This document shows, piece by piece, positions 4,737 to 16,532 of a stretch of DNA of 30,182 nt. The stretch comes from a virus. The position numbers were made by a program, and so were the translations under genes. Position 1 is the stretch's first letter, and each line of letters begins with the position of its first letter. The notes under the pieces were generated by a model. The model was not told the DNA's origin. It searched no databases and saw nothing but the letters and a program-made list of their open reading frames with translations. The DNA lies in IMG/VR virus record IMGVR_UViG_3300027325_000042, positions 1 to 30,182 of that record; one strand, written 5' to 3'.

Positions 4737-6212
4737 TTAAAAATACTGCTCGTCTTTGCTGGCTGGTGCCGCTGGCGATGTCGCTACCGGCGTGAGCGGC
4801 GGCGCAGCCACGGCCGGAGCAGTAGGCAATGCGGCGGGCTGTACTTGCGGCGCAGGCGGCACCACAGGAGCCGTGACGCTCAGCTCCTCGGTGTCCACCG
4901 CGACCTGCTTGCCGAAGTTCACGGCGTGGCCTGCCGTCTTGGCAGCAAGCCGGGTGAAGGCCGCGACGAACCCCTGCATGAGGGCTGAGTACACCGCCGG
5001 GTCCATGTCCTTGATGCGGGAGCGGGACAGCTCCTTGCCCTGCACCCCGACCTGTGCCTGACGCCTGACGAGGTAGGCCACGATGCAGGATGCTGCCGTC
5101 TCTGGCATGCGCTTGACGTACGTGATGTACGCTGCCACGTTGAGCGGCGTCAGAGCGGGCAACAACATGCGCACCTGCATCGACTGGTGCAGCGCCCCCT
5201 TGGGTGTGTCGGCACCCTCGGGATCGTTCTCGACCTGTTCCATCGTGGCGAACCGGTCGGCCAGCTCCATGGCGATGTACAGCTCATGCGCCACAGCCTT
5301 GGGTACCATGGCCTCGAGGATCTCCCGCTTGAAGGCCGGCGAGTACTCGCTGCCTTGGTGCCTGAGATCCATCATCTCGAGCGAGACCTCGTGCCACGTC
5401 GCCGGGTTCAGTCCGTTGACCACGGGGATGGCGGACCCGTAGTCCGGCTCCTTGTCGTCGTCATCGAGCACGTTCAGCCCCTCCACTCGGCCGTTGCTCG
5501 CCACGCCAGTCAGGCACACCAGCGAGGGGTGATCGTTCAGCACCTTCTCGACTTCCGGGGCGAGTACGCCCCGCTCCCCGAGGTACTCGACCACGTCCGG
5601 CGCTTCCGGTCGGATGCGGAACCACTTGCTGATCCGCCGAGCGAGGGGACCCGTCAGGAAGTTGCTCGCCGGCATGTCCTCGGGTCGGTTACCCATGGCG
5701 ATGAACGAGATCCGCGACTTGTCGGCGTCACTGAACTGGTGGGTGCCGACGCCCTTGTAATCCATCAGTGCCAGCAGCACGGCTTGGAAGGGAGGGATAC
5801 CCAGATTTATCTCATCGATCGCGATGACCAGATGCTTGGTCGGGTTGTCGATCAGGAGCTGCGTCGCCTCGTGGTACCAGATCGGCACGGCGTAGTCACA
5901 GGCTACCGTCGGACGCTGGCTGTAGGGGTCGACGTAGGTGTCGCCGGCAACCAGCGCACCCCGCACCGTGATCTCGTCGTACATGGCGCAGTTGAGGACG
6001 TTGACCATGACGCCATCGCAGCCATTGGGGTGGCCGGCAAGATCCTGTGCGGTGATGGTCGATGCGAGGTCGGTGACGGTCTGTGTCTTGCCAGCGCCAC
6101 TCGGACCCATGATGCCGAAGCTCTGACCTCGGATGAAGGACCGGCGGATGTGCTCACGGAGTCGCGTGGTGCCGACTTCGGGAACGAACTGAACACTCAT
6201 TTGATTGGACAT
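4737..6212 (-). CDS. MoxR-like AAA+ ATPase
   Basis: A 491-residue AAA+ ATPase of the MoxR/CobS group (AAA_5 type). Walker A is GPSGAGKT (36-43), Walker B is LVIAIDE (Asp133, Glu134), sensor 1 is AMGNRPED (Asn175) and a likely arginine finger lies in GPLARRI (about 189-194). Residues from about 440 onward are a Pro/Ala-rich flexible linker ending KDEQYF, which may be a contact peptide. MoxR ATPases work as chaperone-like remodelers with a VWA-domain partner (RavA-ViaA, NorQ-NorD, CobS-CobT); such a partner is encoded at 8247-9998, in the same transcription direction but separated by a dozen small ORFs. Start supported by GAGAG about 8 bases upstream. Confidence 0.93.
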   Translation of the reverse strand: MSNQMSVQFVPEVGTTRLREHIRRSFIRGQSFGIMGPSGAGKTQTVTDLASTITAQDLAGHPNGCDGVMVNVLNCAMYDEITVRGALVAGDTYVDPYSQRPTVACDYAVPIWYHEATQLLIDNPTKHLVIAIDEINLGIPPFQAVLLALMDYKGVGTHQFSDADKSRISFIAMGNRPEDMPASNFLTGPLARRISKWFRIRPEAPDVVEYLGERGVLAPEVEKVLNDHPSLVCLTGVASNGRVEGLNVLDDDDKEPDYGSAIPVVNGLNPATWHEVSLEMMDLRHQGSEYSPAFKREILEAMVPKAVAHELYIAMELADRFATMEQVENDPEGADTPKGALHQSMQVRMLLPALTPLNVAAYITYVKRMPETAASCIVAYLVRRQAQVGVQGKELSRSRIKDMDPAVYSALMQGFVAAFTRLAAKTAGHAVNFGKQVAVDTEELSVTAPVVPPAPQVQPAALPTAPAVAAPPLTPVATSPAAPASKDEQYF

Positions 6213-6222
6213 GTGATAGCTC

Positions 6223-6336
6223 TCAAGTTGGTGGTGATAGAAAGTAAAAGATGGTACGGGTACAACGGCAAGTATTTAATACACGCAATACACTACAAAC
6301 AACACACCGCATAGCAGTGCAGGTATTGTACCTCAC
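6223..6336 (-). CDS. Possible tiny Cys-containing ORF, GTG start
   Basis: A 37-codon frame starts at GTG behind a strong ribosome site (GCAGGAGCAGCGCAG), the same form used at 1028. The product has five cysteines, including CVVC, and ends FYFLSPPT. It is not coupled to the preceding array gene (20-base gap) and lacks a clear P-x-F tail. The same stretch is AT-rich on the minus strand (TTGTTT, TATTAAAT), so it may instead be a promoter for the ATPase gene. I rate gene and promoter about equally likely. Confidence 0.35.
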   Translation of the reverse strand: MRYNTCTAMRCVVCSVLRVLNTCRCTRTIFYFLSPPT

Positions 6337-6356
6337 CTGCGCTGCTCCTGCAATGC

Positions 6357-6572
6357 TTACAGATTCTTGAAGTGGGGCGCTTTTATGTAGTCGAACATCG
6401 GAGGTTGGTTCCTTAGTTGGAGCCCAAGGGACTGCGTACAATGGCGACATTTAATCCGCTGTGCGCCGTCGCGGTTTGCGCGCATGACGTCAAAGGAAGC
6501 TGTCGCCACGATCTCGTAGTCGGTACACCCGCAACAGGGCATGCTGGATTTGTACTTTAAAGTTTTTTTCAC
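6357..6572 (-). CDS. Array member: zinc-ribbon-like, tail APHFKNL
   Basis: 71 residues. Cys13/Cys14/Cys16 (PCCGC) pair with Cys42/Cys45 (KCRHC), a four-cysteine zinc-ribbon spacing. It ends IKAPHFKNL, so the tail is shortened to four residues after Pro-x-Phe; this is the last member of the array and has no following gene to supply with a ribosome site, which may explain the missing KEHSS. Its start overlaps the stop of the upstream member (ATGA). Confidence 0.8.
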   Translation of the reverse strand: MKKTLKYKSSMPCCGCTDYEIVATASFDVMRANRDGAQRIKCRHCTQSLGLQLRNQPPMFDYIKAPHFKNL

Positions 6573-6796
6573 GAGCTGTGCTCCTTGAATATAGGAGCCT
6601 GGATAACGGACACGCCGCCTATGTCGGCCGAATACCCGTGTTTATAGCCGCAGTTCTGGCATGTTAGGGAGTTCGATGAGAGCTGATTAGCATCGCGCCA
6701 CTTCCCCCACCCTTGGATCAGGTTATTCAACGGGCTCACCCCACAGCACGGCAAGGCCCGGCGCTTGGGTATGCGCGGCTTGGCAAAGATACTCAT
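6569..6796 (-). CDS. Array member: zinc-ribbon-like, tail APIFKEHSS
   Basis: 75 residues. A basic N-terminus (MSIFAKPRIPKRR) leads into PCCG (Cys17, Cys18) and CQNCG (Cys46, Cys49). The C-terminus is IQAPIFKEHSS; the codons TTC AAG GAG CAC for FKEH are also the ribosome site of the next gene. ATGA overlaps at both ends. The basic N-terminus could bind nucleic acid, but this is inference. Confidence 0.82.
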   Translation of the reverse strand: MSIFAKPRIPKRRALPCCGVSPLNNLIQGWGKWRDANQLSSNSLTCQNCGYKHGYSADIGGVSVIQAPIFKEHSS

Positions 6797-7026
6797 AAGC
6801 TGTGCTCCTTGAAGTTGGGCATGTGCAGCGGGGTTACGTAAGGCTGGGACCCTGCGTAATCACAGCTTAGGCGAGCGACATACTCCGTGTAGCAATATCT
6901 GCACTTGAGTATGTGCATAATGTCGAAGCTGTGCATGTCCTCGATCGTACGGTACTCGTAACAGTTATCGATGTAAGGGCAGAAGCAGCAGGGTGTGCGC
7001 ACGTGCGTGTCGAGCTGCTTATTCAT
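6793..7026 (-). CDS. Array member: Cys-rich, tail MPNFKEHSL
   Basis: 77 residues with seven cysteines: PCCFC (13, 14, 16), Cys22, CRYC (42, 45) and Cys55, so one or possibly two metal sites. It ends LHMPNFKEHSL. The ATG at 7026 is chosen over a longer upstream frame because it forms the ATGA overlap and follows AAGGAGCACAGCTC, contributed by the upstream gene's FKEHSS codons. Confidence 0.82.
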   Translation of the reverse strand: MNKQLDTHVRTPCCFCPYIDNCYEYRTIEDMHSFDIMHILKCRYCYTEYVARLSCDYAGSQPYVTPLHMPNFKEHSL

Positions 7027-7313
7027 GAGCTGTGCTCCTTGAAGACGGGGACTTGGGTGAACCTGAAAGCCGGCGGGTCGCCTCTGAGGTAGTGACACAG
7101 GTGGTCGCCGCACCCTTCACACCGGGCAAGCGCTAGTTGATAACACCCGCTGTCCGGCAAGTCGAACAACAGACGCGTAAGCAATAGTGTTTGACTATTC
7201 ACACTGCCGCAGCACGGCATCATCAGATCGGTTGGCAATTCTTTTCTCTTGCCGAACGCCCGGCGAATTCCAGAGAAAAGTTTTTTCGTTTTGCTCACGC
7301 GAGCTTCAACCAT
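7023..7313 (-). CDS. Array member: zinc-ribbon-like, tail VPVFKEHSS
   Basis: 96 residues from ATG at 7313; a GTG at 7298 overlapping the upstream stop (GTGA) would give 91 and fits the array's coupling pattern better, since neither start has a strong ribosome site. It carries a basic N-terminal extension of about 30 residues, then MPCCG (Cys34, Cys35) and Cys57, CEGCG (65, 68) and Cys73. The tail is TQVPVFKEHSS. It is the first Cys member after the run of Cys-poor mini-members. Confidence 0.8.
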   Translation of the reverse strand: MVEARVSKTKKLFSGIRRAFGKRKELPTDLMMPCCGSVNSQTLLLTRLLFDLPDSGCYQLALARCEGCGDHLCHYLRGDPPAFRFTQVPVFKEHSS

Positions 7314-7402
7314 ATGAACCCGGGCATGCGAAGACGAAACCCGTAGTCAAAAGGGGGTAGGTCCACATGCACGAAGAAGTACTTCAGCTTCTTGGTTTTC
7401 AT
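7295..7402 (-). CDS. Array mini-member without zinc site, tail MPGFIWLKLA
   Basis: 35 residues, no cysteine. Begins MKTKKL like its upstream neighbour (the first 16 or so bases of the two genes are identical) and ends LRMPGFIWLKLA. The ribosome site GGGTGGGAC lies within the upstream gene, whose stop overlaps the ATG. The length leaves room for little more than a short leader plus the shared tail. Confidence 0.72.
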   Translation of the reverse strand: MKTKKLKYFFVHVDLPPFDYGFRLRMPGFIWLKLA

Positions 7403-7530
7403 AAGTCCCACCCACGTAGCAACCATATAAACATAGGTATCCTCACGCACTTGTAGCTTGGCCGCGTGCCGGGGATCTGCCTGAGCTTGGGGAGAAACAA
7501 CGGGTAGCGCTGGAGCTTCTTGGTTTTCAT
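7399..7530 (-). CDS. Array mini-member, tail IPMFIWLLRGWDL
   Basis: 43 residues with a single cysteine. Starts MKTKKLQRYP, then a basic Pro-rich stretch, and ends VRIPMFIWLLRGWDL. ATGA overlaps join it to both neighbours; GAGGTGGAT about 5 bases before the ATG is a good ribosome site. The tail uses codons CCT ATG TTT ATA TGG, unlike the CCC GGG TTC of the next member, showing selection on the peptide. Confidence 0.72.
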   Translation of the reverse strand: MKTKKLQRYPLFLPKLRQIPGTRPSYKCVRIPMFIWLLRGWDL

Positions 7531-7646
7531 ATATCCACCTCGTTTTCCAGCCATATAAATCGCGGCATGGTGAACCATATCGACACACCCCCGCTAGAGT
7601 AGCCACCGTAGCCGGTGAAGTCCCTGAAGTATTCGATCCTTCTCAT
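7527..7646 (-). CDS. Array mini-member, tail MPRFIWLENEVDI
   Basis: 39 residues, no cysteine. MRRIEYFRDF, then a Gly/Ser/Tyr-rich middle (TGYGGYSSGG), then FTMPRFIWLENEVDI. Starts with an ATGA overlap behind GACAGGAGGGTGG, the best ribosome site of the mini-members. The Gly-rich middle looks like a flexible linker holding the tail away from a short aromatic head. Confidence 0.72.
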   Translation of the reverse strand: MRRIEYFRDFTGYGGYSSGGVSIWFTMPRFIWLENEVDI

Positions 7647-7780
7647 ACCCACACCACCCTCCTGTCCAGCCATAGGAAGCTGGGCATGGGGATCATGAAC
7701 GTGTTTGCGTACAAGTCGCTCAGTATGTGTATGTCTTTCGGCAGGGAGTGCAGCTCGGCGTGCTTCAGAAGCCTAGCCAT
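7643..7780 (-). CDS. Array mini-member, tail MPSFLWLDRRVVWV
   Basis: 45 residues, no cysteine. The ATG at 7780 is preferred because it lies inside the end of the upstream ORF (16-base overlap); a longer frame back to 7834 would have no ribosome site. Body MARLLKHAEL onward looks helical; the end is MIPMPSFLWLDRRVVWV. The GAC AGG AGG codons in the tail serve as ribosome site for the next member. Confidence 0.72.
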   Translation of the reverse strand: MARLLKHAELHSLPKDIHILSDLYANTFMIPMPSFLWLDRRVVWV

Positions 7781-7887
7781 AAGAGGTAATCCCTGTCGTC
7801 CAGCCATGTGAATCGAGGTGCGAAAAAAGCACAACGCCCCTGATCAAAGACCCTCTGTACGAAGTAGTGCCGTAGCTCCTTGTTCAT
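7765..7887 (-). CDS. Array mini-member, tail APRFTWLDDRDYLLWLGF
   Basis: 40 residues. Starts MNKELRHYF, sharing MNKELR with the member at 10223-10468, and ends FAPRFTWLDDRDYLLWLGF, one of the longer extensions beyond Pro-x-Phe. One cysteine. Its start overlaps the upstream stop (ATGA) and its end overlaps the next start by 16 bases. Confidence 0.7.
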   Translation of the reverse strand: MNKELRHYFVQRVFDQGRCAFFAPRFTWLDDRDYLLWLGF

Positions 7888-8042
7888 GAGAACAGCGCCT
7901 TTCGTATGCGCTCGGACTTGAACACGGGGAAGTAAACGAGGATGCGCTTGGGCTTGTGCACAGGGGTTCCAGTGAGAATGCCGAACCGGTCGCTCGGAGT
8001 AAAGGATACTGCCACGCTAAAAGTTCCAAGGAATCTATTCAT
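7884..8042 (-). CDS. Array mini-member, tail FPVFKSERIRKALFS
   Basis: 52 residues, no cysteine. MNRFLGTFSVAVSF at the start is hydrophobic, followed by a basic segment (HKPKR) and LVYFPVFKSERIRKALFS. The ATG at 8042 is chosen for its ATGA overlap with the upstream stop. The Phe-Lys-Ser-Glu version of the tail is intermediate between the FKEH and FxWL forms. Confidence 0.7.
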   Translation of the reverse strand: MNRFLGTFSVAVSFTPSDRFGILTGTPVHKPKRILVYFPVFKSERIRKALFS

Positions 8043-8152
8043 TGCACCGGTTCCCCGATCAACCACTTGAAGTCCGGCATGAGAACCATGTCGAAGTAGC
8101 AGGGAGTAGCGCAGTGGATGCTGAGTACCCGACGATTGAGATGCTTGATCAT
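8039..8152 (-). CDS. Array mini-member, tail MPDFKWLIGEPVQ
   Basis: 37 residues. MIKHLNRRVLS, two cysteines in HCATPCYF, then LMPDFKWLIGEPVQ. The ATG overlaps the upstream stop and follows TTGAGGTTAG. Its last 13 residues resemble those of the next upstream member (PDFKWL...VQ), and the DNA matches there too, so these two are recent relatives. Confidence 0.72.
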   Translation of the reverse strand: MIKHLNRRVLSIHCATPCYFDMVLMPDFKWLIGEPVQ

Positions 8153-8250
8153 TGCACTAACCTCAATGACAGCCACTTGAAGTCCGGACCGATCACGGCT
8201 CCCCAAAAATCGGGGTGGTACCACGTCCGGACGGCGAGAACCCGGCTCAC
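8149..8250 (-). CDS. Array mini-member, GTG start, tail GPDFKWLSLRLVQ
   Basis: 33 residues, the smallest in the array, no cysteine. It starts at a GTG that overlaps the stop of the VWA gene (GTGA) and ends VIGPDFKWLSLRLVQ. An ATG-initiated alternative would have to lie deep inside the VWA gene. It is directly coupled to the VWA gene, linking array and VWA expression. Confidence 0.68.
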   Translation of the reverse strand: MSRVLAVRTWYHPDFWGAVIGPDFKWLSLRLVQ

Positions 8251-9998
8251 TTGATCTTCAGGTGCGTGGCCGGCACCCCCGTCGCTGTTGCATAGCTCCC
8301 TGACGTCACCGCCCGGGCCACCGTCTCGGAGCAGTTGTTCTCGGGCGATACCCACACCACCCGCTGAGGATTGATGTCACGGATCAGTCGGGGGTTCGGT
8401 ACCTGCACATAGCAGTCGGTACCGATAATCAGCGTCCCCGCACCATCAAGCTTGGGAATCTCACCGACGTCCATCCGGCGACGCATCTCCTGCAGCGGCT
8501 TGTCGAGAGACGTGCCCCCGCCACCCCCCATGTCGAACACGTGGCCCGTGGCGTTGTTCTGGTCCACCACGAGCGTCGGGTAGGTGTCGGTGTCGAACGG
8601 GACGATGGCAAGCGAGCTGCCCCCGGCGCCGGTCACGATCGTGGTCAGGGCGTAGATCAGCTCGCCGATGCCACCCCCTGCCCAGACCATGCTCCCTGAC
8701 ACATCGAGGAGCGCCGCACACTCGACCTGCGGAGCGTAGCGGGAGGGAAGATACACCCGACTGAGGGCAGGCTCCGCCCGGCAGCGTCGGAGGCTCGAGC
8801 GATCGCCGGCACCGGCCGTGACGGCGAGCATCGACTCGCTGAGTACCTGCCGCCAGTCGACCTCACGCTGAGTGCGAGCAACACGATGCTTCAGGTCGAG
8901 CACGCCCGCCTCCATGCCGGCGCACTGGCTGGCGGTGCTGGCGAGGTTCGTGTCGATCATCGCTTCAGCGTTGGCCTTCGCGTCGGCCCGCTCCTGTGCA
9001 CTCTCCGGCTGGTGCGTCGCATCCGACTGGCCGCCGGGCTCGGACACCCCCGACACAAGGTGACCCTCACCGCCGTCGCTGTTGTCCGTGTCGGGCAGGC
9101 TGTCACCCGCACCCTCTTCACCATCACCACCCTCGCCGTCTTGGGGCTCCTCGTGGGTGAGGTGCTCGGCAAGGTAGTTGAACACGCGAGCGCAGCCGAC
9201 CGCCTTGGTCATGGTGTCAGGCTCATCAAGGTCCGAGAGGAACCGGACCACGTCCTGCCGGGTACCGTCGTCGAGCTGCAGCTGAGCAAGCGTGCTCGCC
9301 AGTGCACCGGCAGCAAACCGGGCATGACAGCGAAAGAAGTCTGCATGCAGGGGCGCCACGTTCCGGGAGGTCTCGGCCAGCGATCGATCGTGGATGGCGT
9401 CGAGCACAAGATTCGCCAAGAACCGGGCGAACTTCGCCACCTTGGGCTGATCGTTCCGGAACAGCGTCGGGAATCCATACTCAATGAGAAGATCCCCGTC
9501 AGCGTAGTGCTTCGCCTCGTGGATAGCGATGCTCCTGAAGCGCTTGTATCGGTCCGTGAAGTCGTTGTCGTCCCGCGCCTCATTACGCCTGCCGATGCAC
9601 CACAATACAAGATCCGGGTGGTACACCATCGTATCGGCAGACACGCCCATGGTCCTGACCGGGTGAGGCGAGAAGACACTCGCGGGGTCCCGGAACATGG
9701 CGAGCGTGAACTCAGGTGTTGCCACACTGAGCTGGGACAGCAAGATAGAACAGGCAAGCACGTCGTCTACGCTGGAGGCCATGCCCTCACCCAAGAGATT
9801 CTGCAGCGCGTCGTGTGCCTCGGTGCAGCGGCGAGCGAACAGGGGAGAGTATAGGTACTTGGGGTGCACACTCACACCGGGGACGTTGGCGTGCGCCTCT
9901 TCGCATTCACGGGGTGGGTCGATGACGGCATCGAGGGTCGTTGCACCCTCGGGCAAGTACGCTTCGTCGGGCAAGGGTAGATTGTTGAGATCGATCAT
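8247..9998 (-). CDS. VWA domain protein with metallopeptidase-like N-terminus (DUF2201 type)
   Basis: 583 residues. The N-terminal half contains an HEAKH motif (His160, Glu161, His164), as in the putative metallopeptidase domain paired with DUF2201. Residues about 283-312 are an acidic Gly/Asp/Glu linker. The VWA domain starts near 380 (VDWRQVLSESML, DRSSLRR) and has the MIDAS residues LLDVSGSM (Asp432, Ser434, Ser436), with further Asp residues in FDTDTY. VWA proteins of this kind act with MoxR-type ATPases as co-chaperones or metal-dependent adaptors; the likely partner is at 4737-6212. The ribosome site TAGGAGCTGAAC includes the stop codon of the previous array gene, and the end is coupled to a mini-member. 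Whether the HExxH-like site is catalytic is unknown. Confidence 0.9.
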   Translation of the reverse strand: MIDLNNLPLPDEAYLPEGATTLDAVIDPPRECEEAHANVPGVSVHPKYLYSPLFARRCTEAHDALQNLLGEGMASSVDDVLACSILLSQLSVATPEFTLAMFRDPASVFSPHPVRTMGVSADTMVYHPDLVLWCIGRRNEARDDNDFTDRYKRFRSIAIHEAKHYADGDLLIEYGFPTLFRNDQPKVAKFARFLANLVLDAIHDRSLAETSRNVAPLHADFFRCHARFAAGALASTLAQLQLDDGTRQDVVRFLSDLDEPDTMTKAVGCARVFNYLAEHLTHEEPQDGEGGDGEEGAGDSLPDTDNSDGGEGHLVSGVSEPGGQSDATHQPESAQERADAKANAEAMIDTNLASTASQCAGMEAGVLDLKHRVARTQREVDWRQVLSESMLAVTAGAGDRSSLRRCRAEPALSRVYLPSRYAPQVECAALLDVSGSMVWAGGGIGELIYALTTIVTGAGGSSLAIVPFDTDTYPTLVVDQNNATGHVFDMGGGGGTSLDKPLQEMRRRMDVGEIPKLDGAGTLIIGTDCYVQVPNPRLIRDINPQRVVWVSPENNCSETVARAVTSGSYATATGVPATHLKIK

Positions 9999-10010
9999 GT
10001 TGTTCAGCTC

Positions 10011-10226
10011 CTAAGTGTAGAGGTGGGGGAAGTAGGGTGTGGTTATGGGGTGGTCCAGCTCCTCGGCTTCCGTGGGGTACCTTTGGCCCCTACTGTGGTC
10101 ACAGCGTGAGTAGTGGTAGCTTTCCCAGTAGATTTGGTTAAGCAGCGCTCTTCGAGAACCCTCGCCGGGAGCAGGGTAGCTCGCCATGCAATGACCGCAC
10201 CGGGGAATAACCTTCAGGGTTTTCAT
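10011..10226 (-). CDS. Array member: CxxC...CxH, tail TPYFPHLYT
   Basis: 71 residues. RCGHC (Cys10, Cys13) and RCDH (Cys42, His44) form a likely zinc site. It ends HPITTPYFPHLYT, a variant of the HPVPTPWF tail of the next three related members. ATG at 10226 overlaps the upstream stop; CGGAGAACC is the ribosome site. Last array gene before the VWA gene, 12 bases apart. Confidence 0.8.
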   Translation of the reverse strand: MKTLKVIPRCGHCMASYPAPGEGSRRALLNQIYWESYHYSRCDHSRGQRYPTEAEELDHPITTPYFPHLYT

Positions 10227-10468
10227 TCCGGTTCTCCGTATACGTGTACGAACCAAGGCGTAGGAACGGGGTGGGCGAGGTGCTGCGCGAAACTGACTAC
10301 CCCATGATGCCGGGGATGTCTATGTTCACATCTCAGGTATTTTCCATGCTCCTCAGGAGTACGCCTTACCAAACGTCTCCAGCGCTCATCATCAGTCTCT
10401 TCGTATCTGTCTCTGTGTGCCGCCGTGCAAGCACCACACCGGACGACGACACGCAGCTCCTTATTCAT
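10223..10468 (-). CDS. Array member: CxxC...CxH, tail TPWFVHVYGEPE
   Basis: 81 residues. MNKELRVVV, RCGAC (Cys11, Cys14), an Arg/Glu-rich helix, then RCEH (Cys47, His49) and a His-rich loop. Ends HPVPTPWFVHVYGEPE. The ATG lies 8 bases inside the end of the upstream ORF and follows GAGCAGGGCG. The 3' end is one of three near-identical DNA copies. Confidence 0.8.
   Translation of the reverse strand: MNKELRVVVRCGACTAAHRDRYEETDDERWRRLVRRTPEEHGKYLRCEHRHPRHHGVVSFAQHLAHPVPTPWFVHVYGEPE
10231..10281 (-). repeat. Direct repeat at 3' end of array gene, copy 1
   Basis: About 36-50 bases shared with 10689-10740 and 10913-10966. It encodes the HPVPTPWF tail plus the following ribosome site. The core word on the plus strand is AACCAAGGCGTAGGAACGGG. 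Confidence 0.75.
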
Positions 10469-10688
10469 CGCCCTGCTCTATCAAGTGGGCGAGCAGCGGG
10501 GCGCGGATCTCCAAGTTGGCGCCGTGAATCATCGGATCGAAACAGTGGCACCGTCTCCACAGCTCCAGCTCGAGCTGCAAGTTCTGCGTAGGAGGCGCAT
10601 AGGCTCCTGCGATGGGAGCGTACGCGCCCGCCGCACCACAGCGCCTGCAGCGGGGGAAAGACTCGAGTGTTCTCGTGGTTGGTTTCAT
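10461..10688 (-). CDS. Array member: CxxC...CxC, tail APLLAHLIEQGDE
   Basis: 75 residues. PRCRRCG (Cys14, Cys17) and RCHC (Cys47, Cys49). A short repeat, GAYAP, occurs twice between them (about 21-31). Tail IRAPLLAHLIEQGDE has Leu instead of Phe after Pro-x. The ATG at 10688 overlaps the upstream stop (ATGA) and follows GGAGCACAGTC. A long overlapping frame at 10465-10884 lacks these features. Confidence 0.75.
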   Translation of the reverse strand: MKPTTRTLESFPRCRRCGAAGAYAPIAGAYAPPTQNLQLELELWRRCHCFDPMIHGANLEIRAPLLAHLIEQGDE

Positions 10689-10912
10689 GACTGTGCTCCA
10701 TACAGGTACGCAAACCAAGGCGTAGGAACGGGGTGGCTGAGATCCTCGGAGTGATAGGGGCCTCGCCTGCCCTGTCGAGAATGTGAACACTGGTCGTATC
10801 GGTATGCTTCTTTCCGGTTCTCGTCCAAATACGTACCGAGCGGGTAAAAACCGTCTTCTTTTTGGTACAACGCGGTGCACTCACCGCAGCGAGTGATGAT
10901 CGTGATCTTCAT
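10685..10912 (-). CDS. Array member: CxxC...CxH, tail TPWFAYLYGAQS
   Basis: 75 residues. TRCGEC (Cys9, Cys12) and QCSH (Cys42, His44). Its last 16 residues (HPVPTPWFAYLYGAQS) are identical to those of the next upstream member, and both share ITRCGEC at the N-terminus while the middles differ, so this pair arose by duplication followed by change in the middle. ATGA at both ends. Confidence 0.82.
   Translation of the reverse strand: MKITIITRCGECTALYQKEDGFYPLGTYLDENRKEAYRYDQCSHSRQGRRGPYHSEDLSHPVPTPWFAYLYGAQS
10689..10740 (-). repeat. Direct repeat at 3' end of array gene, copy 2
   Basis: Second copy of the tail-plus-ribosome-site block at 10231-10281, differing mainly at the inner edge (GGCTGA instead of GGGCGA). 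Confidence 0.75.
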
Positions 10913-11157
10913 GACTGTGCTCCGTATAGGTACGCAAACCAAGGCGTAGGAACGGGGTGGGCGAGGTCGGAGGCGACGTAAGTTATACGCCGGGTGCCGT
11001 GAGCGTCCCGCAAACCGTGCTGGCAATCTTGGAATCGCTTTCTTTCTAGCGGGAAGGCGTCCCACAAATCGAGAACAGCCCGGGAGTGCCCCGAACCGTC
11101 AAACAATGCCCCGCACTCACCGCAGCGCGTGATGATCGTGAGTGTTTTCTTTCTCAT
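10909..11157 (-). CDS. Array member: CxxC...CxH, tail TPWFAYLYGAQS
   Basis: 82 residues. TRCGECG (Cys12, Cys15) and DCQH (Cys45, His47), tail AHPVPTPWFAYLYGAQS. Paralogue of 10685-10912. The ATG at 11157 forms ATGA with the upstream stop; the ribosome site is GGGAGGATAT. Confidence 0.82.
   Translation of the reverse strand: MRKKTLTIITRCGECGALFDGSGHSRAVLDLWDAFPLERKRFQDCQHGLRDAHGTRRITYVASDLAHPVPTPWFAYLYGAQS
10913..10966 (-). repeat. Direct repeat at 3' end of array gene, copy 3
   Basis: Third copy of the same block; 10689-10740 and this one also share the bases around the next start codon (ATGACTGTGCTCC on the plus strand). Confidence 0.75.
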
Positions 11158-11366
11158 ATATCCTCCCGCTGGGGTAAGTGGTGGAACCGCGGCGCGTCGA
11201 CACCGCGAAACAGGGCTTCGTTGTGCTGGCACTTGTCGGCGTACTTCAGCTCGTTTCGAGTCTGTGTTGATAACCCCGGCTTACCGCGCAGGCCGTGCAT
11301 GGCGAGACCGATCAAGGCGGCAGCGCCACACACGGGACAGCGGAGGCGGGAGGCAAGGGCTTTCAT
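11154..11366 (-). CDS. Array member: CxxC...CxH, tail APRFHHLPQREDI
   Basis: 70 residues. RCPVCGAAAL (Cys10, Cys13) is a classical zinc-ribbon knuckle; the second site is KCQH (Cys46, His48). Tail VDAPRFHHLPQREDI. ATGA overlap with the upstream stop; GAGAACACC is a weak ribosome site, so translation probably depends on coupling. Confidence 0.8.
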   Translation of the reverse strand: MKALASRLRCPVCGAAALIGLAMHGLRGKPGLSTQTRNELKYADKCQHNEALFRGVDAPRFHHLPQREDI

Positions 11367-11578
11367 GGGGTGTTCTCGAGAAGGTGTCGGAACACAGGCG
11401 CCGGCATGTTTCGAAGCGAACGTACGCACCGCAAGAAGAGGCGCGACTCCGTGACAGCCACCGGATTCGCTCGATCCACCTCACTCATCAGGAGCGGGTC
11501 GACGTTGGCGAGCGCCCCGCACACCCGACAGCGCCGCCGGATCGCCACGCGGCGAGCCCGGCAGATGTCCATAGTCAC
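11363..11578 (-). CDS. Array member: CxxC, GTG start, tail APVFRHLLENTP
   Basis: 71 residues from GTG at 11578, which overlaps the DUF3310 stop (GTGA) and follows GGAAGGAGCGGA; ATG two codons later is an alternative. CRVCG (Cys17, Cys20) is present, but the second half keeps only Cys51 (RCVRS), so the metal site looks incomplete unless Cys6 contributes. Tail NMPAPVFRHLLENTP. Confidence 0.78.
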   Translation of the reverse strand: MTMDICRARRVAIRRRCRVCGALANVDPLLMSEVDRANPVAVTESRLFLRCVRSLRNMPAPVFRHLLENTP

Positions 11579-11814
11579 TCCGCTCCTTCCCGTTCCCGGC
11601 GGGCGATCTCACGATCGACATACCAGCGGGCCTTGCGAAGGTCTTCCAGCGTCTTGCCCTTGTGGTCCGCCCGCCACAGGTACTTGATGGCGTTGCCGAT
11701 ATTGAAGGGCATGTGCTCTATCACGTCGATGCACTCGATACCCGAGCCGTTGGCGTTGTAGTGCGGCGGGTGGTCGACCGTCTCGGGTGGGTTTGGTTTG
11801 TATTCCATACTCAT
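11575..11814 (-). CDS. DUF3310 family protein
   Basis: 79 residues, matching DUF3310 (PF11753), a common phage family of unproven function sometimes called a nucleotide-kinase-like domain. Recognisable parts are HPPHYNANGSGIECIDVIEH, NIGNAIKYLWRADHKG and DLRKARWYVDREI. The C-terminus is plain charged residues with no P-x-F tail, so it is an ordinary phage gene embedded in the array and coupled to it by overlaps at both ends. The ribosome site CTGGAG is 6 bases before the ATG. Confidence 0.93.
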   Translation of the reverse strand: MSMEYKPNPPETVDHPPHYNANGSGIECIDVIEHMPFNIGNAIKYLWRADHKGKTLEDLRKARWYVDREIARREREGAE

Positions 11815-12035
11815 TGGTTTCTCCAGCTGTCGTATCGAAATTCAGGCGCGTGGATCTGTGCTCCTCCCTGACGGAAATGCTCGCACTTAACGATCGGCCG
11901 CCGGATCGTGTGGACAGGCGGACCGCCGTTGTCGGGGACGTGTGTGCTCCTGAGCGGCGGGACAAACTCCCCGCACACACTACAGCAGACGCGAGAGGTC
12001 AGCCGCGTGAACGGCTGACCCACCCGAACGATCAC
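11811..12035 (-). CDS. Array member: CxxC...CxH, GTG start, tail APEFRYDSWRNQ
   Basis: 74 residues from GTG, overlapping the upstream stop (GTGA) behind GTGGAGCA. CCSVCG (Cys17, Cys18, Cys21) and KCEH (Cys51, His53). Tail IHAPEFRYDSWRNQ. The Arg-rich segment between the two half-sites is about 30 residues, the usual spacing in this array. Confidence 0.8.
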   Translation of the reverse strand: MIVRVGQPFTRLTSRVCCSVCGEFVPPLRSTHVPDNGGPPVHTIRRPIVKCEHFRQGGAQIHAPEFRYDSWRNQ

Positions 12036-12817
12036 TGCTCCACACTGCCTGCCGCTGACGCACGCTCGGCAGAGAGAGCCAGACCGCGATTCATCAGGTC
12101 TTGGAAGTACGCGTCGTCGGCGGCGACCCCCTCGATCAGCTCGAGAGCGGCCTCGTGGTTGATAGCCGCAATGAAATACTGCTGCATCTTCTCTTTCTCG
12201 TCTCTCGGATAGTCGTTGTCCATCGTGGCGTACATGGCCTCGAGCACGCTCTCAGGCAGGCCGACTTCTGTCAAAGCCAACAGGTTCACGTGCTCGAACG
12301 CAGCGCACTGGGGCGAGAAGTCAAAGGTCGTCGGGGGGGATTTCAGGAGATCCATCACGTCGAGCTTCGCGATCAGGTTCTCGAACACAGCCGGGGTGAT
12401 GAACTGTGCCGCATACTGGCGCTGCACCCCCTCGTTATCCGTGTAGTTCTCGTAGTTAAGCGGGTAGGTTGTGTCCGGGTGGTATCCCGTCGCCGGCTGG
12501 TCGGCCGGGTGGATAGCGGGAAGGATGCGCGTGGTGGGTGTTGTTGCAGTCATGGTTTTTCTCTCTGGTGGGTGGGACGGGTGGAGGGTCGTGCGTTTGA
12601 ACTCAGGTACGGGGGTCAAGGCATGATCGATGATGAACTGCTCGAGGGTCGCGCCGCGTTTGCTGCATCTGAAGTAGTTCGGGCAGTCTTCACAGCCGCC
12701 GACGATACCGATGGTGCGGGTACGGTCCAGGTAGCCGTTAGAGTACAGGTATTTTATCGTACAATTCAGGCTCCAGCAGTTAGTGCACAGCACAGTCTGG
12801 TAGTCCGGGCGGTTCAT
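12032..12817 (-). CDS. Array member fused in frame to a 173-residue protein
   Basis: 261 residues from ATG 12817 (ATGA with upstream stop, ribosome site CAAGGAGCACAGGTC). Residues 1-80 are an array member: CTNC and Cys19, CEDC and Cys51, and the tail motif LTPVPEFKRTTL near 67-78. No stop follows; a Pro-rich linker (HPSHPPERKT) runs into a second protein beginning MTATTP at residue 89. That methionine (12553) has its own GAGAG ribosome site about 11 bases upstream, so a separate 173-residue product (12032-12553) is probably also made. The second part is acidic and helical, without a family I recognise. Either a stop codon was lost or both products are used. Confidence 0.75.
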   Translation of the reverse strand: MNRPDYQTVLCTNCWSLNCTIKYLYSNGYLDRTRTIGIVGGCEDCPNYFRCSKRGATLEQFIIDHALTPVPEFKRTTLHPSHPPERKTMTATTPTTRILPAIHPADQPATGYHPDTTYPLNYENYTDNEGVQRQYAAQFITPAVFENLIAKLDVMDLLKSPPTTFDFSPQCAAFEHVNLLALTEVGLPESVLEAMYATMDNDYPRDEKEKMQQYFIAAINHEAALELIEGVAADDAYFQDLMNRGLALSAERASAAGSVEQ

Positions 12818-13032
12818 GACCTGTGCTCCTTGAAAGGGGGCTTGCACGCGGCAGGCTCCCAGTTCCACTCTCGCCAGTGGAACCGGCACATGTAGCACAT
12901 CTTTCGGCTGTAGCGCGCTCGATCGATCCCTCCTCGATAGGCATGCATAGCCCTCTGAAGGGCCGACCCGTAGTCGTCCGCGCCGCAGTTCGGGCAGCAG
13001 GGTATGGCGTCAAGGGTTTTATGGGTCTCCAT
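12814..13032 (-). CDS. Array member: zinc-ribbon-like, tail KPPFKEHRS
   Basis: 72 residues. PCCPNCG (Cys12, Cys13, Cys16) and MCYMC (Cys46, Cys49), plus Cys63. Tail CKPPFKEHRS, matching the FKEHSS tails some 6 kb away at 6569-7045; the FKEH codons again form the next ribosome site. The ATG lies 14 bases inside the upstream ORF behind GAGGAGCTGCGC. Confidence 0.82.
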   Translation of the reverse strand: METHKTLDAIPCCPNCGADDYGSALQRAMHAYRGGIDRARYSRKMCYMCRFHWREWNWEPAACKPPFKEHRS

Positions 13033-13318
13033 CGCGCAGCTCCTCGGGTATGTAGTACTCGAACAGGGGAGAGTTGATCAAGGTGTAAGGCGCACAGCTC
13101 GCTTGACAGAACAGCTTGCCGGGCTGTCCTGTAAATACGTGCTCGTATGAGTCGACGTTCTCCCAGACAGTCTCCCAGTTCTCGGCAAATTGATCTGGCT
13201 CTGTTGGGAAGGGCCCATCCACAGGCAAGGCCAGTCGTTTGTGGCGTGTGAGCAGGCGCGACGGGCGGCCGCACTTGTGGCAGCGGGTGATGACTTGTAT
13301 GGGCTCGGTCTTGTTCAT
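13019..13318 (-). CDS. Array member: CxxC...CxxxC, tail SPLFEYYIPEELRDGDP
   Basis: 99 residues, the longest unfused member. TRCHKCG (Cys13, Cys16) and FCQASC (Cys71, Cys75), with a wider insert of about 55 residues rich in Trp/Glu (ENWETVWENV). Tail LINSPLFEYYIPEELRDGDP. The start overlaps the upstream stop as TAATG, with TTGGAG as ribosome site. Confidence 0.8.
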   Translation of the reverse strand: MNKTEPIQVITRCHKCGRPSRLLTRHKRLALPVDGPFPTEPDQFAENWETVWENVDSYEHVFTGQPGKLFCQASCAPYTLINSPLFEYYIPEELRDGDP

Positions 13319-13554
13319 TATCTACTCCAAGGAACAGCGGGCGCGGCGATCCAGCGCTGTTGGTAAGTGACGCCGTGGCGGTCAAGATCGTCGAAGTTGA
13401 CGCCATACTCGAGCTCGGACACGCAGTGGTCCATGCAATGAATCACGGCGGCGTTCTCCTCGTGAGCCGTAGCTGGTCTATCCAGCTCCGCCGAGTTGTA
13501 CAGCGCCCCACAATACAGGCATCGTTTGCTCTTGGTAAGTTCATGCTCTTTCAT
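13318..13554 (-). CDS. Array member: CxxC...CxxxC, degenerate tail APAVPWSR
   Basis: 78 residues. RCLYCG (Cys12, Cys15) and HCMDHC (Cys40, Cys44). The end, WIAAPAVPWSR, keeps Ala-Pro but has Val in place of Phe and stops early, so this member may have lost full tail function. ATGA overlap with the upstream gene. Confidence 0.78.
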   Translation of the reverse strand: MKEHELTKSKRCLYCGALYNSAELDRPATAHEENAAVIHCMDHCVSELEYGVNFDDLDRHGVTYQQRWIAAPAVPWSR

Positions 13555-13772
13555 GGTGTCACTCTCACGTCCGGATACTTGTTTTGGTAGGCAAGCACGG
13601 GCGTTTTTATGGTTTTCTGATGGGTCCAGTGGTGGGCCTGCATGCACTGCTGATGGGCGCGATGCTCCTCCCGGTTCTCATTGGATGGCAGGGCGTTGTA
13701 TATGTAATAATAGCTGCACGCCCCGCACGCACCGCAGCGCACGACGGTCTCGAGTCGTTTATGTTTTGGCAT
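13551..13772 (-). CDS. Array member: CxxCxxC...CxxxH, tail TPVLAYQNKYPDVRVTP
   Basis: 73 residues. RCGACGAC gives three cysteines (13, 16, 19); the second half-site is QCMQAHH (Cys43, His47, His48). Tail TIKTPVLAYQNKYPDVRVTP, with Leu for Phe as in 10461-10688. The ATG is 14 bases inside the upstream ORF. Confidence 0.78.
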   Translation of the reverse strand: MPKHKRLETVVRCGACGACSYYYIYNALPSNENREEHRAHQQCMQAHHWTHQKTIKTPVLAYQNKYPDVRVTP

Positions 13773-13989
13773 GGCGATACCTGAAGGCCGGGGCGTAATG
13801 GAAACTCTCGTGGCACTGCTCCTCGCAGATATCGAACAGGCGCAGCTCCTCTGTTTTCTCTTTCTCCTCGCCGGGCGCGTCTCTGAGATGCCATAGGGCG
13901 CCGCACCCCTGACAACGCTCAGCCGTGTCAAGGAGTATCGCTCGCCTGCGTCGAGCGTGTAGGTTAGACAGGATCTCTTCACTCTTCAT
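13759..13989 (-). CDS. Array member: CxxC...CxxxC, tail APAFRYRHAKT
   Basis: 76 residues. A basic helix (HARRRR, 11-16) precedes RCQGCG (Cys26, Cys29); the second half is ICEEQC (Cys55, Cys59). Tail HYAPAFRYRHAKT. Ribosome site AAGGAGCAGCACGCC lies in the upstream gene, overlapping its last 11 bases. Confidence 0.8.
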   Translation of the reverse strand: MKSEEILSNLHARRRRAILLDTAERCQGCGALWHLRDAPGEEKEKTEELRLFDICEEQCHESFHYAPAFRYRHAKT

Positions 13990-14236
13990 GGCGTGCTGCT
14001 CCTTGGGGTGGGCGCCGGTGTGAGAGCTGGTAGCGAAAGAAGGGCGTGATGAGGTTCACGCTGCTGAGCCAGTGCTTCGAGGTGCGGCAGGTGTGATGCA
14101 AGCGCCGCTCCTCTGCCGACTCCCGGGAGCTGGCAGAGGAGGATGTGTTTCTGCTCTTGTAGACATAACTGCGTGCTCCGCAGATGGAGCAGCGAAGCAC
14201 GCAGGGCACGGTGTGGCGGTCAGGGTCCAGCGCCAT
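13979..14236 (-). CDS. First array member: CxxC...CxxxxH, tail TPFFRYQLSHRR
   Basis: 85 residues. RCSICG (Cys16, Cys19, with Cys12 nearby), a Ser-rich linker, then TCRTSKH (Cys50, His55). The motif LITPFFRYQL is followed by a 17-residue basic/polar extension, the longest in the array. This gene is promoter-proximal: GGAGCAATCACG precedes the ATG and no gene overlaps its start. Confidence 0.82.
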   Translation of the reverse strand: MALDPDRHTVPCVLRCSICGARSYVYKSRNTSSSASSRESAEERRLHHTCRTSKHWLSSVNLITPFFRYQLSHRRPPQGAARHEE

Positions 14237-14277
14237 CGTGATTGCTCCGGTGGGTGGGGGTTGTAGTGGTAATGATG

Positions 14278-14306
14278 AATATACATGTACTGTCTGGGTG
14301 TCACAA
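14278..14306 (-). promoter_or_regulatory. Sigma70-type promoter for the array operon
   Basis: On the minus strand TTGTGA and TATATT are separated by exactly 17 bases, about 40 bases upstream of the first array start codon and just after a terminator. Four of six and five of six positions match the sigma70 boxes. This is the only good promoter I see for the long minus-strand operon. Confidence 0.7.
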
Positions 14307-14316
14307 AATGAAGGCC

Positions 14317-14343
14317 AAAAAAATCCCGGCCACAAGGGCCGGG
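14317..14343 (-). terminator. Intrinsic terminator
   Basis: On the minus strand a 7-bp GC stem (CCCGGCC / GGCCGGG, 5-base loop) is followed by A then seven T. It ends transcription of 14380-14913 and insulates the array promoter. Confidence 0.88.
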
Positions 14344-14379
14344 AAAGGGTGGGTGGATCGTGTGTTGGTTGACTAAGGG

Positions 14380-14913
14380 TTAGCCGAACCTGAGCTCGGA
14401 AGCGAGATCACGGATGCGCTCAATGACTTGCTCCTTGTCGTCCGAGAGATCAGCGCCGAACACCTGCTCCCACAAGGGGTTGGTGTCGCAGTCATTGAGC
14501 TCCTCGCCATTCGCGTCCTCGCCGCCGTACAGGGCGGGGAAGAACCTCATGCCGACGTCTTCGTAGTCGAGCGGCGTGTCGGGGGTGTGGTTGCTCTGCA
14601 TGATCTTCACTTCATCGAGAAAACAGATCACGGCCCAGCCAAGGGCGCAGGCGCTGGCGCCGCACTCGGGGAGGTTCTGCCCATCTCGGGACCAGACCGC
14701 CCGGCTGACGAGATCGCGCATCGGCAGGTAGTGGGCCGTGCAGGCGCTGTCCGGGTTCTCTGCCATACGAGCGCGTACCTCGTCGTCAGGGCGGGTGGCG
14801 AAGCGGTTCATCTTAATGCGATCGGCGGGCACATGAAGGTCCATGTACTCGGCCAGCTTGTGGAGATTGTCCGCCGTGGTGATGTCGGGATGTGTAGTAG
14901 ATGTACGTGACAT
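14380..14913 (-). CDS. Conserved-type phage hypothetical protein
   Basis: 177 residues. ATG at 14913 follows CACAGGAGCACAAC. The first 60 residues contain NLHKLAEYMD and a Met/Phe-rich stretch; the centre has CGASACALGWA, a Cys-x-x-x-x-Cys-x-x-Gly signature seen in many phage proteins of unknown function that begin in a similar way. The C-terminal part is acidic and helical. It forms its own short transcription unit ending in a strong terminator. Function unknown. Confidence 0.85.
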   Translation of the reverse strand: MSRTSTTHPDITTADNLHKLAEYMDLHVPADRIKMNRFATRPDDEVRARMAENPDSACTAHYLPMRDLVSRAVWSRDGQNLPECGASACALGWAVICFLDEVKIMQSNHTPDTPLDYEDVGMRFFPALYGGEDANGEELNDCDTNPLWEQVFGADLSDDKEQVIERIRDLASELRFG

Positions 14914-15003
14914 GGTGTGTTGTGCTCCTGTGAGGTAGGTGAAACGAGTAAACCTTTCCGGTTGGCAAGAATTACTGAGGTTTCGTACTTCAGCTGTACG
15001 CTG

Positions 15004-15050
15004 AGCAAACAAGCCTGTTTACGGTCGAAAACCGCACAAACCTGTTTGGT
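15004..15050. promoter_or_regulatory. Possible operator: two CCTGTTT repeats around a small hairpin
   Basis: Plus-strand words AAGCCTGTTTACGG and AAACCTGTTTGG flank CGGT-CGAAA-ACCG. The same ACCTGTTTG word lies just upstream of the Ntn-hydrolase gene (18597-18605). The position, about 100 bases upstream of 14913, fits a regulator site, but no protein is known to bind it. Confidence 0.35.
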
Positions 15051-16445
15051 AAGCGCTCAGAAGGAGCTTCGATCTAAGGGTGATGGACGGCGCTAGACTA
15101 TGGCCGACACCGGGGCGGTTGAGAAAGTCGCTTAGGGGAGCTTAAAACCGTGCTCCTTGGGGTGTTTCGGCGGCTGGGGGTGGGAACAGAGTCGATTAGG
15201 GGCTTGGAAGGGGCGCGGATTTGCTGTTCCTAGCCGTTTTACTGGCGAAGCATACAGTGATTAAAAACGTTACAGAATTGGGATTGTAAATACCTCAACC
15301 AATTCAAAGACTTAGGTGCTTTTTAGGGGGTCTTGTAACGTTTTCGAATGGGGGTTGTTGCGCTTTTTGAGGCCAAAAGAGCGGTTATTTTGGCGAAACG
15401 TCACGCTTTTTTCGATTTGTAACGCTCCGAAATTCGCGTAAAGTTTTGATAAGCAAAACAAAACAAAGAAAACATACCTGTACTACTACTACAATTTATT
15501 AGATAAGAGAGAGAGTAGTAGTGCTGAGAATTTGCAGGTTTTCTAGGCTGAATTTGGCTGTAACAAAATGGCAAATAAACGTACGTTTTTCGCTAAAAAA
15601 GTACTTTTCTCCAATAGCTATGGATGTTTTGGCGTTACAGCTTTTGATGTTGTATTATTTCAGGGAAAAATCGCTGGGAGCCGCGTTCTGCCTATATGGC
15701 TATTGAGGTGTCGTAAGTGTATGCGTCCGATTCTGTAACGTTTTGGACGAGAACGTACGTCACATATCGCAAAAACCGCTGCAAGTTGTTGAATCTTGCG
15801 TTAAATTTGGAATTTGGAAAAATTGAAAACCCATACAATTCCTCAAAAAGCGCTCGTTTTGGACTTCTGGAGGTACGTCATATAGGCCTGATTCGGCTAA
15901 GCTCCTTGCTGTGACGCGACGCAAAATTGCCTGACCCCCGCGACCCAATTTTGTTACATTTTGGAGTATATGACGTACGTTATGACCCAACTTTATCTGA
16001 ACTACGTTAATCCGCCTAAAAAGTTCGGATTCGTACTGCATATATCTTCCCTCAAACAGTAAGGAACGGCACGCCCATACCACCAGACGTACCGCTCCTC
16101 AGTTGTCACGTTAGTTACGTTACCTGTAGGTGCTGCGCGACCCGAAAAGAGAGTGCTAGACCCCTTGCTCCGTAGGGTTATTAGCGTGTTTGTACACACT
16201 TATTAACACTTGCCGGCTATCAAACAGGCAGGAGCGGACGCCACGCTGGTAACGTGCGTCGTGCTGGGGGATCGATTCGCTGTGAAGCTACTCGACCCTA
16301 TATAGGCGCGTGTCTCGCCATCTATCCTGCTGCTGTACCGCGATGCGCTCACGGGATACGAACCCGGCCACCATCGTGGTGCTAGCTGCCCCGGCCTACA
16401 GTCAGGGACTTGGCGTTACGTACAGATTCGGGCGTTAGCCTTTAC
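15050..16445. other. Gene-free region with AT-rich core, possible replication origin
   Basis: No frame here has a ribosome site or credible protein. Composition falls from GC-rich to clearly AT-rich between about 15240 and 16100. The octamer CTGTAACG or close forms recur in both orientations (15268, 15333, 15418, 15558, 15633, 15733), three ACGTACGT palindromes lie at 15579, 15753 and 15973, and an inverted ACTACTAC/GTAGTAGT pair flanks an A/T and GA-rich loop near 15483-15520. Iteron-like repeats in AT-rich DNA suggest an origin; a promoter or untranslated RNA is an alternative. Confidence 0.45.
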
Positions 16446-16496: not shown

Positions 16497-16497
16497 A

Positions 16498-16520: not shown

Positions 16521-16532
16521 CCGTACTACCGA

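Follow-up and report, generated by a model that had tools for sequence, protein, structure and literature searches.

The array and its shared C-terminal tail

The DNA analysed here, referred to as the window, is the whole of the 30,182-base IMG/VR virus record IMGVR_UViG_3300027325_000042. On its minus strand, reading from position 14236 to 6357, it carries an array of 27 open reading frames (ORFs) with a common C-terminal tail, 26 of which are only 33-99 residues long. Such a chain of 27 tiny minus-strand ORFs had been proposed in a first-pass annotation of the sequence and was borne out by a recount and by analysis of the junctions. The chain comprises 29 genes, the tail-bearing members being accompanied by a small gene that we take to be of the DUF3310 type and by a gene for a VWA-like protein (Table 1). 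One ORF is fused, as member 7 continues in frame without a stop into a downstream ORF of ~170 residues, for which a Pfam scan gave no match. Among the 28 junctions, 19 are exact four-nucleotide overlaps, or 20 when the fused ORF is followed as far as its stop codon; there are also seven overlaps of 1-19 nucleotides and one gap of 12 nucleotides before the VWA-like gene. The GC content at the three codon positions of the zinc-type members described below (0.57/0.47/0.70) is coding-like when set beside that of the DNA polymerase gene (0.63/0.42/0.76).

Aligning the 27 members yielded the tail consensus [I/V/L]-x-[A/T/M]-P-x-F-x-[W/Y/H]-L, in which the proline is invariant and the phenylalanine is present in 24 members, being replaced by leucine in two and by valine in one. 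The remaining positions are less strict: I, V or L at P-3, A, T or M at P-1 and W, Y or H at P+4 occur in 20 members each, and L at P+5 in 14. The probability of obtaining such tails by chance was evaluated for ORFs of at least 30 residues in three frames of the array stretches 6350-8250 and 10005-14240, requiring P-x-F within the last 20 residues. The motif was found in 22 of 40 ORFs on the coding strand and in none of 39 on the opposite strand, and in 200 dinucleotide shuffles the count averaged 1.22 and never exceeded 5. A matrix built from 18 zinc-type tails placed the eight held-out short members (minis) at ranks 1, 2, 3, 4, 6, 11, 13, and 39 among 483 ORFs. The reverse test with a mini-trained matrix was weaker: of 18 held-out tails, 10 ranked among the first 22 of 493 and the other eight at 65-374.

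Where two tails share a residue, they use the same codon in a fraction of 0.46 over all pairs, compared to 0.51 expected from the codon usage of four long genes. The conserved proline is encoded by CCC (12), CCT (9) or CCG (6) and the phenylalanine by TTC (18) or TTT (6). Since the residues have lasted through saturation of the synonymous sites, the tail is kept at the protein level, and the common tail claimed in the first-pass annotation is thus real. The same data bear on the idea that the array is a DNA or RNA repeat, a regulatory or recombination element that is open in one frame by chance. Short DNA repeats and ribosome-binding sites at the junctions speak for it, but the varied proline and phenylalanine codons and the coding-like codon-position GC content argue against it, and the repeats cover only some junctions; we regard it as barely tenable and rejected it on the codon evidence.

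Part of the motif as originally worded did not hold. The residues K-E-H are encoded by AAG GAG CAC and Y-G-A-Q by TAC GGA GCA CAG, both directly before an ATGA junction, and the "E-H" of the earlier motif is in part the ribosome-binding site of the next gene. For this reason, the robust protein core is reduced to hydrophobic-x-x-P-x-F. The tail as a whole being a mere by-product of that site was considered and rejected, as the position of the site varies and the last gene of the chain, which has no overlapping gene after it, ends in PHFKNL without a ribosome-binding site. The distance from the tail phenylalanine to the stop codon is 3-18 residues, and 188 in member 7.

Nineteen of the 27 members, termed zinc-type, contain a first cysteine pair (CxxC or CC) in all 19 cases and a second C-x(1-3)-[C/H] pair in 17, thus carrying a zinc-knuckle-like Cys/His core which by its sequence would be suited to binding zinc. 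The Cys core is absent from all eight minis (33-52 residues). We grouped the members into three forms, A and B together making up the 19 zinc-type members: form A has CxxCG ... E ... C-x-H and tails such as APRFHHL and TPWFAYL; form B has PCC ... CxxC and tails that are mostly PxFKEHSS; form C comprises the minis, mostly ending in PxFxWL. A short N-terminal segment of the M-x-K-x-L type precedes the variable middle in most members, and the minis retain short N- and C-terminal parts. Judged by these features the 27 ORFs look like paralogs of one family. The heads had earlier been described as different from one another; the middles are indeed highly divergent, but wholly unrelated heads can be dismissed given the shared core of the 19 and the end segments kept by the minis. 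An all-against-all phmmer comparison linked just 4 of the 27 members, as they are too short and too divergent for pairwise searches, which makes such paralog families hard to recognise.

Table 1: Members of the array and associated features of the window.
Feature	Coordinates	Strand	Remarks
Terminator-like hairpin with T-run, intrinsic type	14324..14344	-	between upstream gene and array
Sigma-70-like promoter match	14278..14306	-	TTGTGA-17-TATATT, upstream of member 1; consensus match only
Member 1, zinc-type	13979..14236	-	tail ITPFFRYQ; second pair not seen
Member 2, zinc-type	13759..13989	-	tail YAPAFRYR
Member 3, zinc-type	13551..13772	-	tail IKTPVLAY (F replaced by L)
Member 4, zinc-type	13318..13554	-	tail IAAPAVPW (F replaced by V)
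Member 5, zinc-type	13019..13318	-	tail INSPLFEY
Member 6, zinc-type	12814..13032	-	CC/CxxC subgroup; tail CKPPFKEHRS
Member 7, zinc-type	12032..12817	-	tail TPVPEFKR, internal; ATG at 12553
Member 8, zinc-type	11811..12035	-	GTG start; tail IHAPEFRY
Small non-family gene within the chain	11575..11814	-	best PHROG phrog_236 'nucleotide kinase', 3.9e-31
Member 9, zinc-type	11363..11578	-	GTG start; tail MPAPVFRHL; second pair not seen
Member 10, zinc-type	11154..11366	-	tail VDAPRFHHL
Member 11 (m12), zinc-type	10909..11157	-	tail VPTPWFAYLYGAQS
Member 12 (m13), zinc-type	10685..10912	-	tail VPTPWFAYLYGAQS
Member 13, zinc-type	10461..10688	-	tail IRAPLLAHL (F replaced by L)
Member 14 (m15), zinc-type	10223..10468	-	tail VPTPWFVHVYG
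Member 15 (m16), zinc-type	10011..10226	-	tail ITTPYFPHLYT
VWA-like gene within the array	8247..9998	-	HExxH and DxSGS motifs
Member 16, mini, 33 residues	8149..8250	-	GTG start overlaps VWA stop; tail VIGPDFKWL
Member 17, mini	8039..8152	-	tail VLMPDFKWL
Member 18, mini, 52 residues	7884..8042	-	tail VYFPVFKS
Member 19, mini	7765..7887	-	tail FFAPRFTWL
Member 20, mini	7643..7780	-	tail IPMPSFLWL
Member 21, mini	7527..7646	-	tail FTMPRFIWL
Member 22, mini	7399..7530	-	tail VRIPMFIWL
Member 23, mini, 35 residues	7295..7402	-	tail LRMPGFIWL; modelled as hairpin, low confidence
Member 24, zinc-type	7023..7313	-	CC/CxxC subgroup; tail TQVPVFKEHSS
Member 25, zinc-type	6793..7026	-	tail LHMPNFKEHSL
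Member 26, zinc-type	6569..6796	-	tail IQAPIFKEHSS
Member 27, zinc-type, last in chain	6357..6572	-	GTG start; tail IKAPHFKNL, without ribosome-binding site
Weak terminator-like hairpin	6303..6321	-	between last member and ATPase gene
AAA+ ATPase gene	4737..6212	-	144 nucleotides after the array; phrog_1297 'ATPase', 1.8e-15

Predicted fold and apparent reshuffling of the members

AlphaFold models were obtained separately from the 18-member alignment of forms A and B and from the eight-member mini alignment, which have no sequence in common. The zinc-type model (mean predicted local distance difference test (pLDDT) 81, predicted template modelling score (pTM) 0.66) contains strands at residues 8-12 and 68-72, the latter ending at the invariant proline, and helices at 26-34, 36-45, and, shorter, 75-78. 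In the mini model, strands at 6-15 and 18-27, the second again ending at the proline, are followed by a helix at 30-33. Because both models agree in this respect, the modelling suggests that a small sheet is closed by the tail, which supplies its last strand and a turn.

This prediction affects the first proposal made for the tail, that many proteins dock through one short peptide onto one partner. That one tail is shared by many members stands; a free C-terminal peptide is not the simplest reading of it. As the tail is predicted to lie within the fold and further residues follow the phenylalanine, so many in member 7 that the tail becomes internal, recognition of a free C-terminal peptide by a single partner need not be invoked.

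Traces of recombination were looked for in the codons of related members. In DNA, three neighbouring tails still show 79-90% identity, whereas the middles have reached saturation. In the pair formed by the members at 10909 and 10223, 10 of 11 comparable tail sites have the same codon, against 2 of 14 elsewhere (Fisher p 0.0002); in the pair at 10909 and 10685, this holds for 22 of 25 sites in both ends and 4 of 11 in the middle (p 0.003). The contrast between tail and middle points to recombination. As the ends share codons and the middles do not, the two seem to be of different age, and it would seem that either the ends were homogenised or the middles replaced. Six of nine direct-repeat families lie at the tails, junctions or N-terminal segments of members, and the middles differ by insertions and deletions.

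Junction repeats of this kind could drive unequal crossing-over, and the array might then be mostly neutral tandem amplification, a duplication series kept up by recombination, in which only a few members function and the minis are leftovers in decay. The missing Cys core of the minis would fit, as would the result that, in a 42.8 kb contig containing the window, an 18-member profile matched only within the array. On the other hand, the tail is conserved at synonymous saturation and is common to minis and zinc-type members, and starts and overlaps are intact. The same search of the contig found only the profile's own 18 members and no extra broken copy, broken minis being invisible to the profile. 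On balance, we consider a mostly neutral origin unlikely.

Relatives, genome setting and neighbouring genes

The first-pass annotation knew of no described family of this form, and we found no relative in Pfam, PHROGs, PDB, phage records or IMG/VR at the limited sensitivity that such short sequences allow. All 27 members were scanned against Pfam and PHROGs, the best E values being 0.0032 (one member, YmcF-like, the best of a few weak zinc-ribbon-type scores) and 0.0055 (one member), respectively. The 18-member profile gave a best E of 0.036 against PDB sequences and no match at E <= 1 in 36 related phage records; its sole positive control was the contig from which it had been built. A tblastn search with one zinc-type member against 50,697 phage records at E up to 10 returned four records with a best E of 0.9, and megablast of window positions 5000-15500 against the phage collection detected no near DNA relative. 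Scans of IMG/VR with the VWA-like protein, the ATPase, the DNA polymerase and a four-member subfamily alignment recovered just the window-containing 42.8 kb contig; a three-sequence VWA alignment added one further contig of 75,764 bases.

The search was extended to genome relatives and to tail patterns. A TerL alignment matched at least 600 stretches representing at least 581 relatives, 80 of which were kept for a tail-cluster scan; none had more than 3 junction-linked tail ORFs per 3 kb, compared to 10 in the own contig. Two PxFxWL-doublet patterns, which see the PxFxWL type only, were run over IMG/VR and matched 18 and 82 stretches, the own contig being in both sets. Among the 17 others of the first set, one stretch (L028) had 9 tail ORFs per 3 kb without the junction criterion and the rest at most 5; on inspection L028 was rejected, as we judged it to consist of overlapping frames of other sequence and to form no chain. 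All 81 others of the second set were scored, with 2 junction-linked tail ORFs at best and 5 without the junction criterion; four multi-match loci were inspected and discarded, three being collagen-like and one encoding another repeat protein. One subfamily was also run against genomes of 84,980 species, and its 18 pattern hits included no relative. Manual reading of stretches from Pseudomonas phage Rollin, from the IMG/VR records G008 and G025 and from G027 revealed no PxF array. In the literature, no description of such an array was found. Searches with such short sequences are weak, so that not found does not mean absent.

Two observations were made along the way. The Rollin record leaves ~9.5 kb (51781-61282) without an annotated gene, and this stretch contains chains of small ORFs with ribosome-binding-like sites. 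In another stretch (L007), a GH16-like glycosyl hydrolase gene at 3289-4263 on the plus strand (Pfam E 0.0016, below cut-off) adjoins a gene for a 1,094-residue protein, cut at its 5' end, without a PHROG match.

The contig mentioned above is a second record, IMGVR_UViG_3300009417_000012 (42,817 bases), which contains the whole window and ~12.5 kb more on the left. It differs from window positions 1-19,998 by a single base, at 15303 and thus outside the array, and matches positions 25,000-30,182 at 100%. The minus strand of the window encodes a primase/helicase, a SNF2-type helicase, a DNA polymerase, an exonuclease and the AAA+ ATPase, and the plus strand a terminase and a portal or head-tail adaptor protein, a gene content which suggests a podovirus-like phage. 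The terminase is 23-40% identical to its relatives over the aligned part. A VRR-NUC identity guessed for a further protein of this phage drew no Pfam match.

The gene order also bears on the thought that the members are virion-associated or injected proteins, packaged by means of the tail much as the internal proteins of T4 are, virion proteins with a shared targeting end and protease cleavage. A small variable protein family with one constant end would suit this, but the genes around the array are of the replication type, terminase and portal being some way off and on the other strand, and we hold a packaging role to be very improbable.

Elsewhere in the window, positions 15000-16000 have a GC content of 0.44, short ORFs only and inverted copies of the palindromes TGTAACGTTTT and ACGTACGT, possibly marking an origin or control region. 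Before the terminase gene, at 20270-20823 on the plus strand, two, perhaps three, short overlapping ORFs resemble tandem paralogs (KPYKSK ... FPAN ... GARxIYSPFLxDV) and would form a second small paralog group of this phage. At 29830-30182, an ORF cut by the record end encodes collagen-like GPxGDP repeats, and the longer record likewise ends in collagen-like repeats.

The VWA-like gene inside the array and the ATPase gene behind it deserve closer attention. The VWA-like protein matches Pfam VWA_CoxE at 1.4e-4, below cut-off, and phrog_1314 at 3.6e-12, a family that bears the label 'HNH endonuclease' in PHROGs; relatives of the protein are named metallopeptidases in some of the phage records deposited. 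Both an HExxH and a DxSGS motif occur in all five proteins compared, the window protein and four others. The ATPase has Pfam AAA matches below cut-off in addition to its PHROG match, and we take it to be MoxR-like from its pairing with the VWA gene. No phage matched the ATPase or VWA-like proteins by tblastn at 1e-5; at E up to 10, the VWA-like protein matched 17 records, 14 of which are Pectobacterium phages, among them Possum, a member of the Schitoviridae. Pectobacterium phage Possum and Rhizobium phage RHph_TM3_14A encode an ATPase together with a metallopeptidase of the VWA-like type, and G008 and G025 have an ATPase match and a protein with both HExxH and DxSGS. An HslV-family peptidase (phrog_1040, 1.6e-23) is encoded at window positions 18106-18684 on the minus strand.

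These neighbours open the way to a revised form of the docking proposal, in which all members would use the tail to plug into one partner, likeliest the AAA+ ATPase/VWA pair and perhaps including the HslV-family peptidase, and each middle brings a different host protein, making the array a set of adaptors for a phage protein-remodelling machine. The VWA-like gene lies within the array, where its stop overlaps the GTG start of member 16 in a GTGA, and the ATPase gene follows the array; the HExxH and DxSGS motifs and the presence of the peptidase fit a machine of this kind, and the minis keep little except strand and tail. Precedents exist as well: PMC7159879 (eLife 2020) describes MoxR-vWA pairs coupled to diverse effectors, and PMC6873191 describes Gp53 of the Bacillus phage SPO1 as an adaptor-like protein acting on a AAA+ protease. 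Against docking stand the predicted position of the tail within the fold and its varying distance from the C-terminus, the weak terminator-like hairpin between array and ATPase gene, and the result that no PxF array was found in Possum, RHph_TM3_14A, G008 or G025, the more distant phages with ATPase/VWA genes. This last finding weakens these genes as tail partners without excluding them. Taken together, docking into one partner seems rather doubtful to us, though it is the main rival of the reading preferred below. In its full and boldest form, 27 microproteins would share a docking or closing element and each deliver its own host protein to a single phage machine, made up of the co-encoded AAA+ ATPase/VWA-HExxH pair and possibly the HslV-family peptidase. 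This form we rate as improbable; if true, such an adaptor array would be a virus's version of a repertoire of targeting subunits, with recombination at gene junctions re-assorting it.

The window may resemble MoxR-vWA conflict systems in that it encodes an AAA+ protein, MoxR being our tentative label for it, and a VWA-like protein together with diversified partners; those systems, as described in PMC7159879, possess a further core component (VMAP, iSTAND, FtsH) and large effector domains, whereas the partners here are paralogs of 33-99 residues. General scans, with no dedicated model run, detected none of VMAP, iSTAND, and FtsH among the proteins covered. Neither was a reverse transcriptase of a diversity-generating retroelement found among the proteins scanned, which did not comprise every ORF and were searched with no dedicated model. 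The zinc-type members resemble small zinc-ribbon or zinc-finger proteins in having a CxxC or CC and, after it, another C-x-C/H pair in proteins of 70-99 residues, but no single Pfam match to such families was stronger than the E value of 0.0032 given above. Small CxxC zinc-ribbon proteins are not known to have mini forms or a C-terminal strand common to all members.

A different family of short paralogs was noticed in RHph_TM3_14A, defined by AMLLG...D-x-x-T-M-x-P and lying among small ORFs upstream of the ATPase/metallopeptidase genes. The search covered 48.9 kb and gave 12 members, located at 9651-13027 and onward as far as 25726, nine of them upstream of the ATPase; they are hypothetical proteins where annotated. 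One member used as query matched in four Rhizobium phage records only, and five members compared with PHROGs gave nothing better than E 0.042. The gene order of this phage is partly like that of the window, with small ORFs, the two genes, a DNA polymerase, a RecB-like nuclease and a SNF2-type helicase, although the ATPase and VWA-like genes are swapped. The AMLLG family is thus like the PxF array in comprising short paralogs upstream of an ATPase/metallopeptidase pair, but differs in its conserved motif, in the absence of the PxF tail and in having 3 of the 12 members elsewhere in the stretch.

A possible repertoire of early microproteins

The reading we tentatively prefer, plausible to us though slightly short of probable, is that the array is a lineage-specific, diversifying repertoire of early microproteins built on one scaffold with a varied middle and acting on host proteins. 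The 27 paralogs would stem from a series of tandem duplications within the block of replication genes in a podovirus-like phage. Their N- and C-terminal segments are predicted to pair as two beta-strands, with the PxFxx turn closing the sheet and the middle forming a variable insert. Presumably expressed early as one translationally coupled operon, the scaffold would show many different surfaces that bind host proteins, in takeover or counter-defence, so that the phage would gain by keeping many diverging copies, whose ends and middles may be reshuffled through similar junction DNA. The promoter-like site and the terminator-like hairpin ahead of member 1 speak for this reading, as does the AMLLG paralog family of RHph_TM3_14A.

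Several points weigh against this repertoire. Some of what is seen here would be expected of neutral amplification too. Of the nine pairs examined, two show a clear codon mosaic, six others being too diverged or too short to tell; the contrast between the members at 10685 and 10223 is weak (tail 8/10, N-terminal segment 3/6, middle 4/8), and the pairs were picked after the repeat search, so that the p-values given are uncorrected. Diversifying selection is a supposition, since the paralogs are saturated and the sole second copy of the array stems from the longer record with its one base difference outside the array. The mini model is of low confidence (mean pLDDT 60, pTM 0.22) and Foldseek returned no match for the zinc-type model at E <= 0.001 in PDB or BFVD, so that the fold and zinc binding are both putative. 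The promoter match is by number no better than chance, as the scan found 2 sites in the stretch compared to 4.2 expected in shuffles, and only its position is suggestive.

We found no described member of this protein family. In its general kind, the array is reminiscent of the host-takeover clusters of phages, for instance that of SPO1, but is built from one amplified family. According to PMC6873191, the SPO1 host-takeover module comprises 26 genes whose products are reported to shut off host processes, about equal in number to the 27 members here, which look like one family.

Small phage ORFs of this kind are easily missed by gene callers. With its invariant core and variable middle, the 27-copy family represents a defined set for asking what phages use microprotein repertoires for. 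A distant phage has another paralog family, of a different kind, in a comparable position, which hints at a recurrent amplification site.

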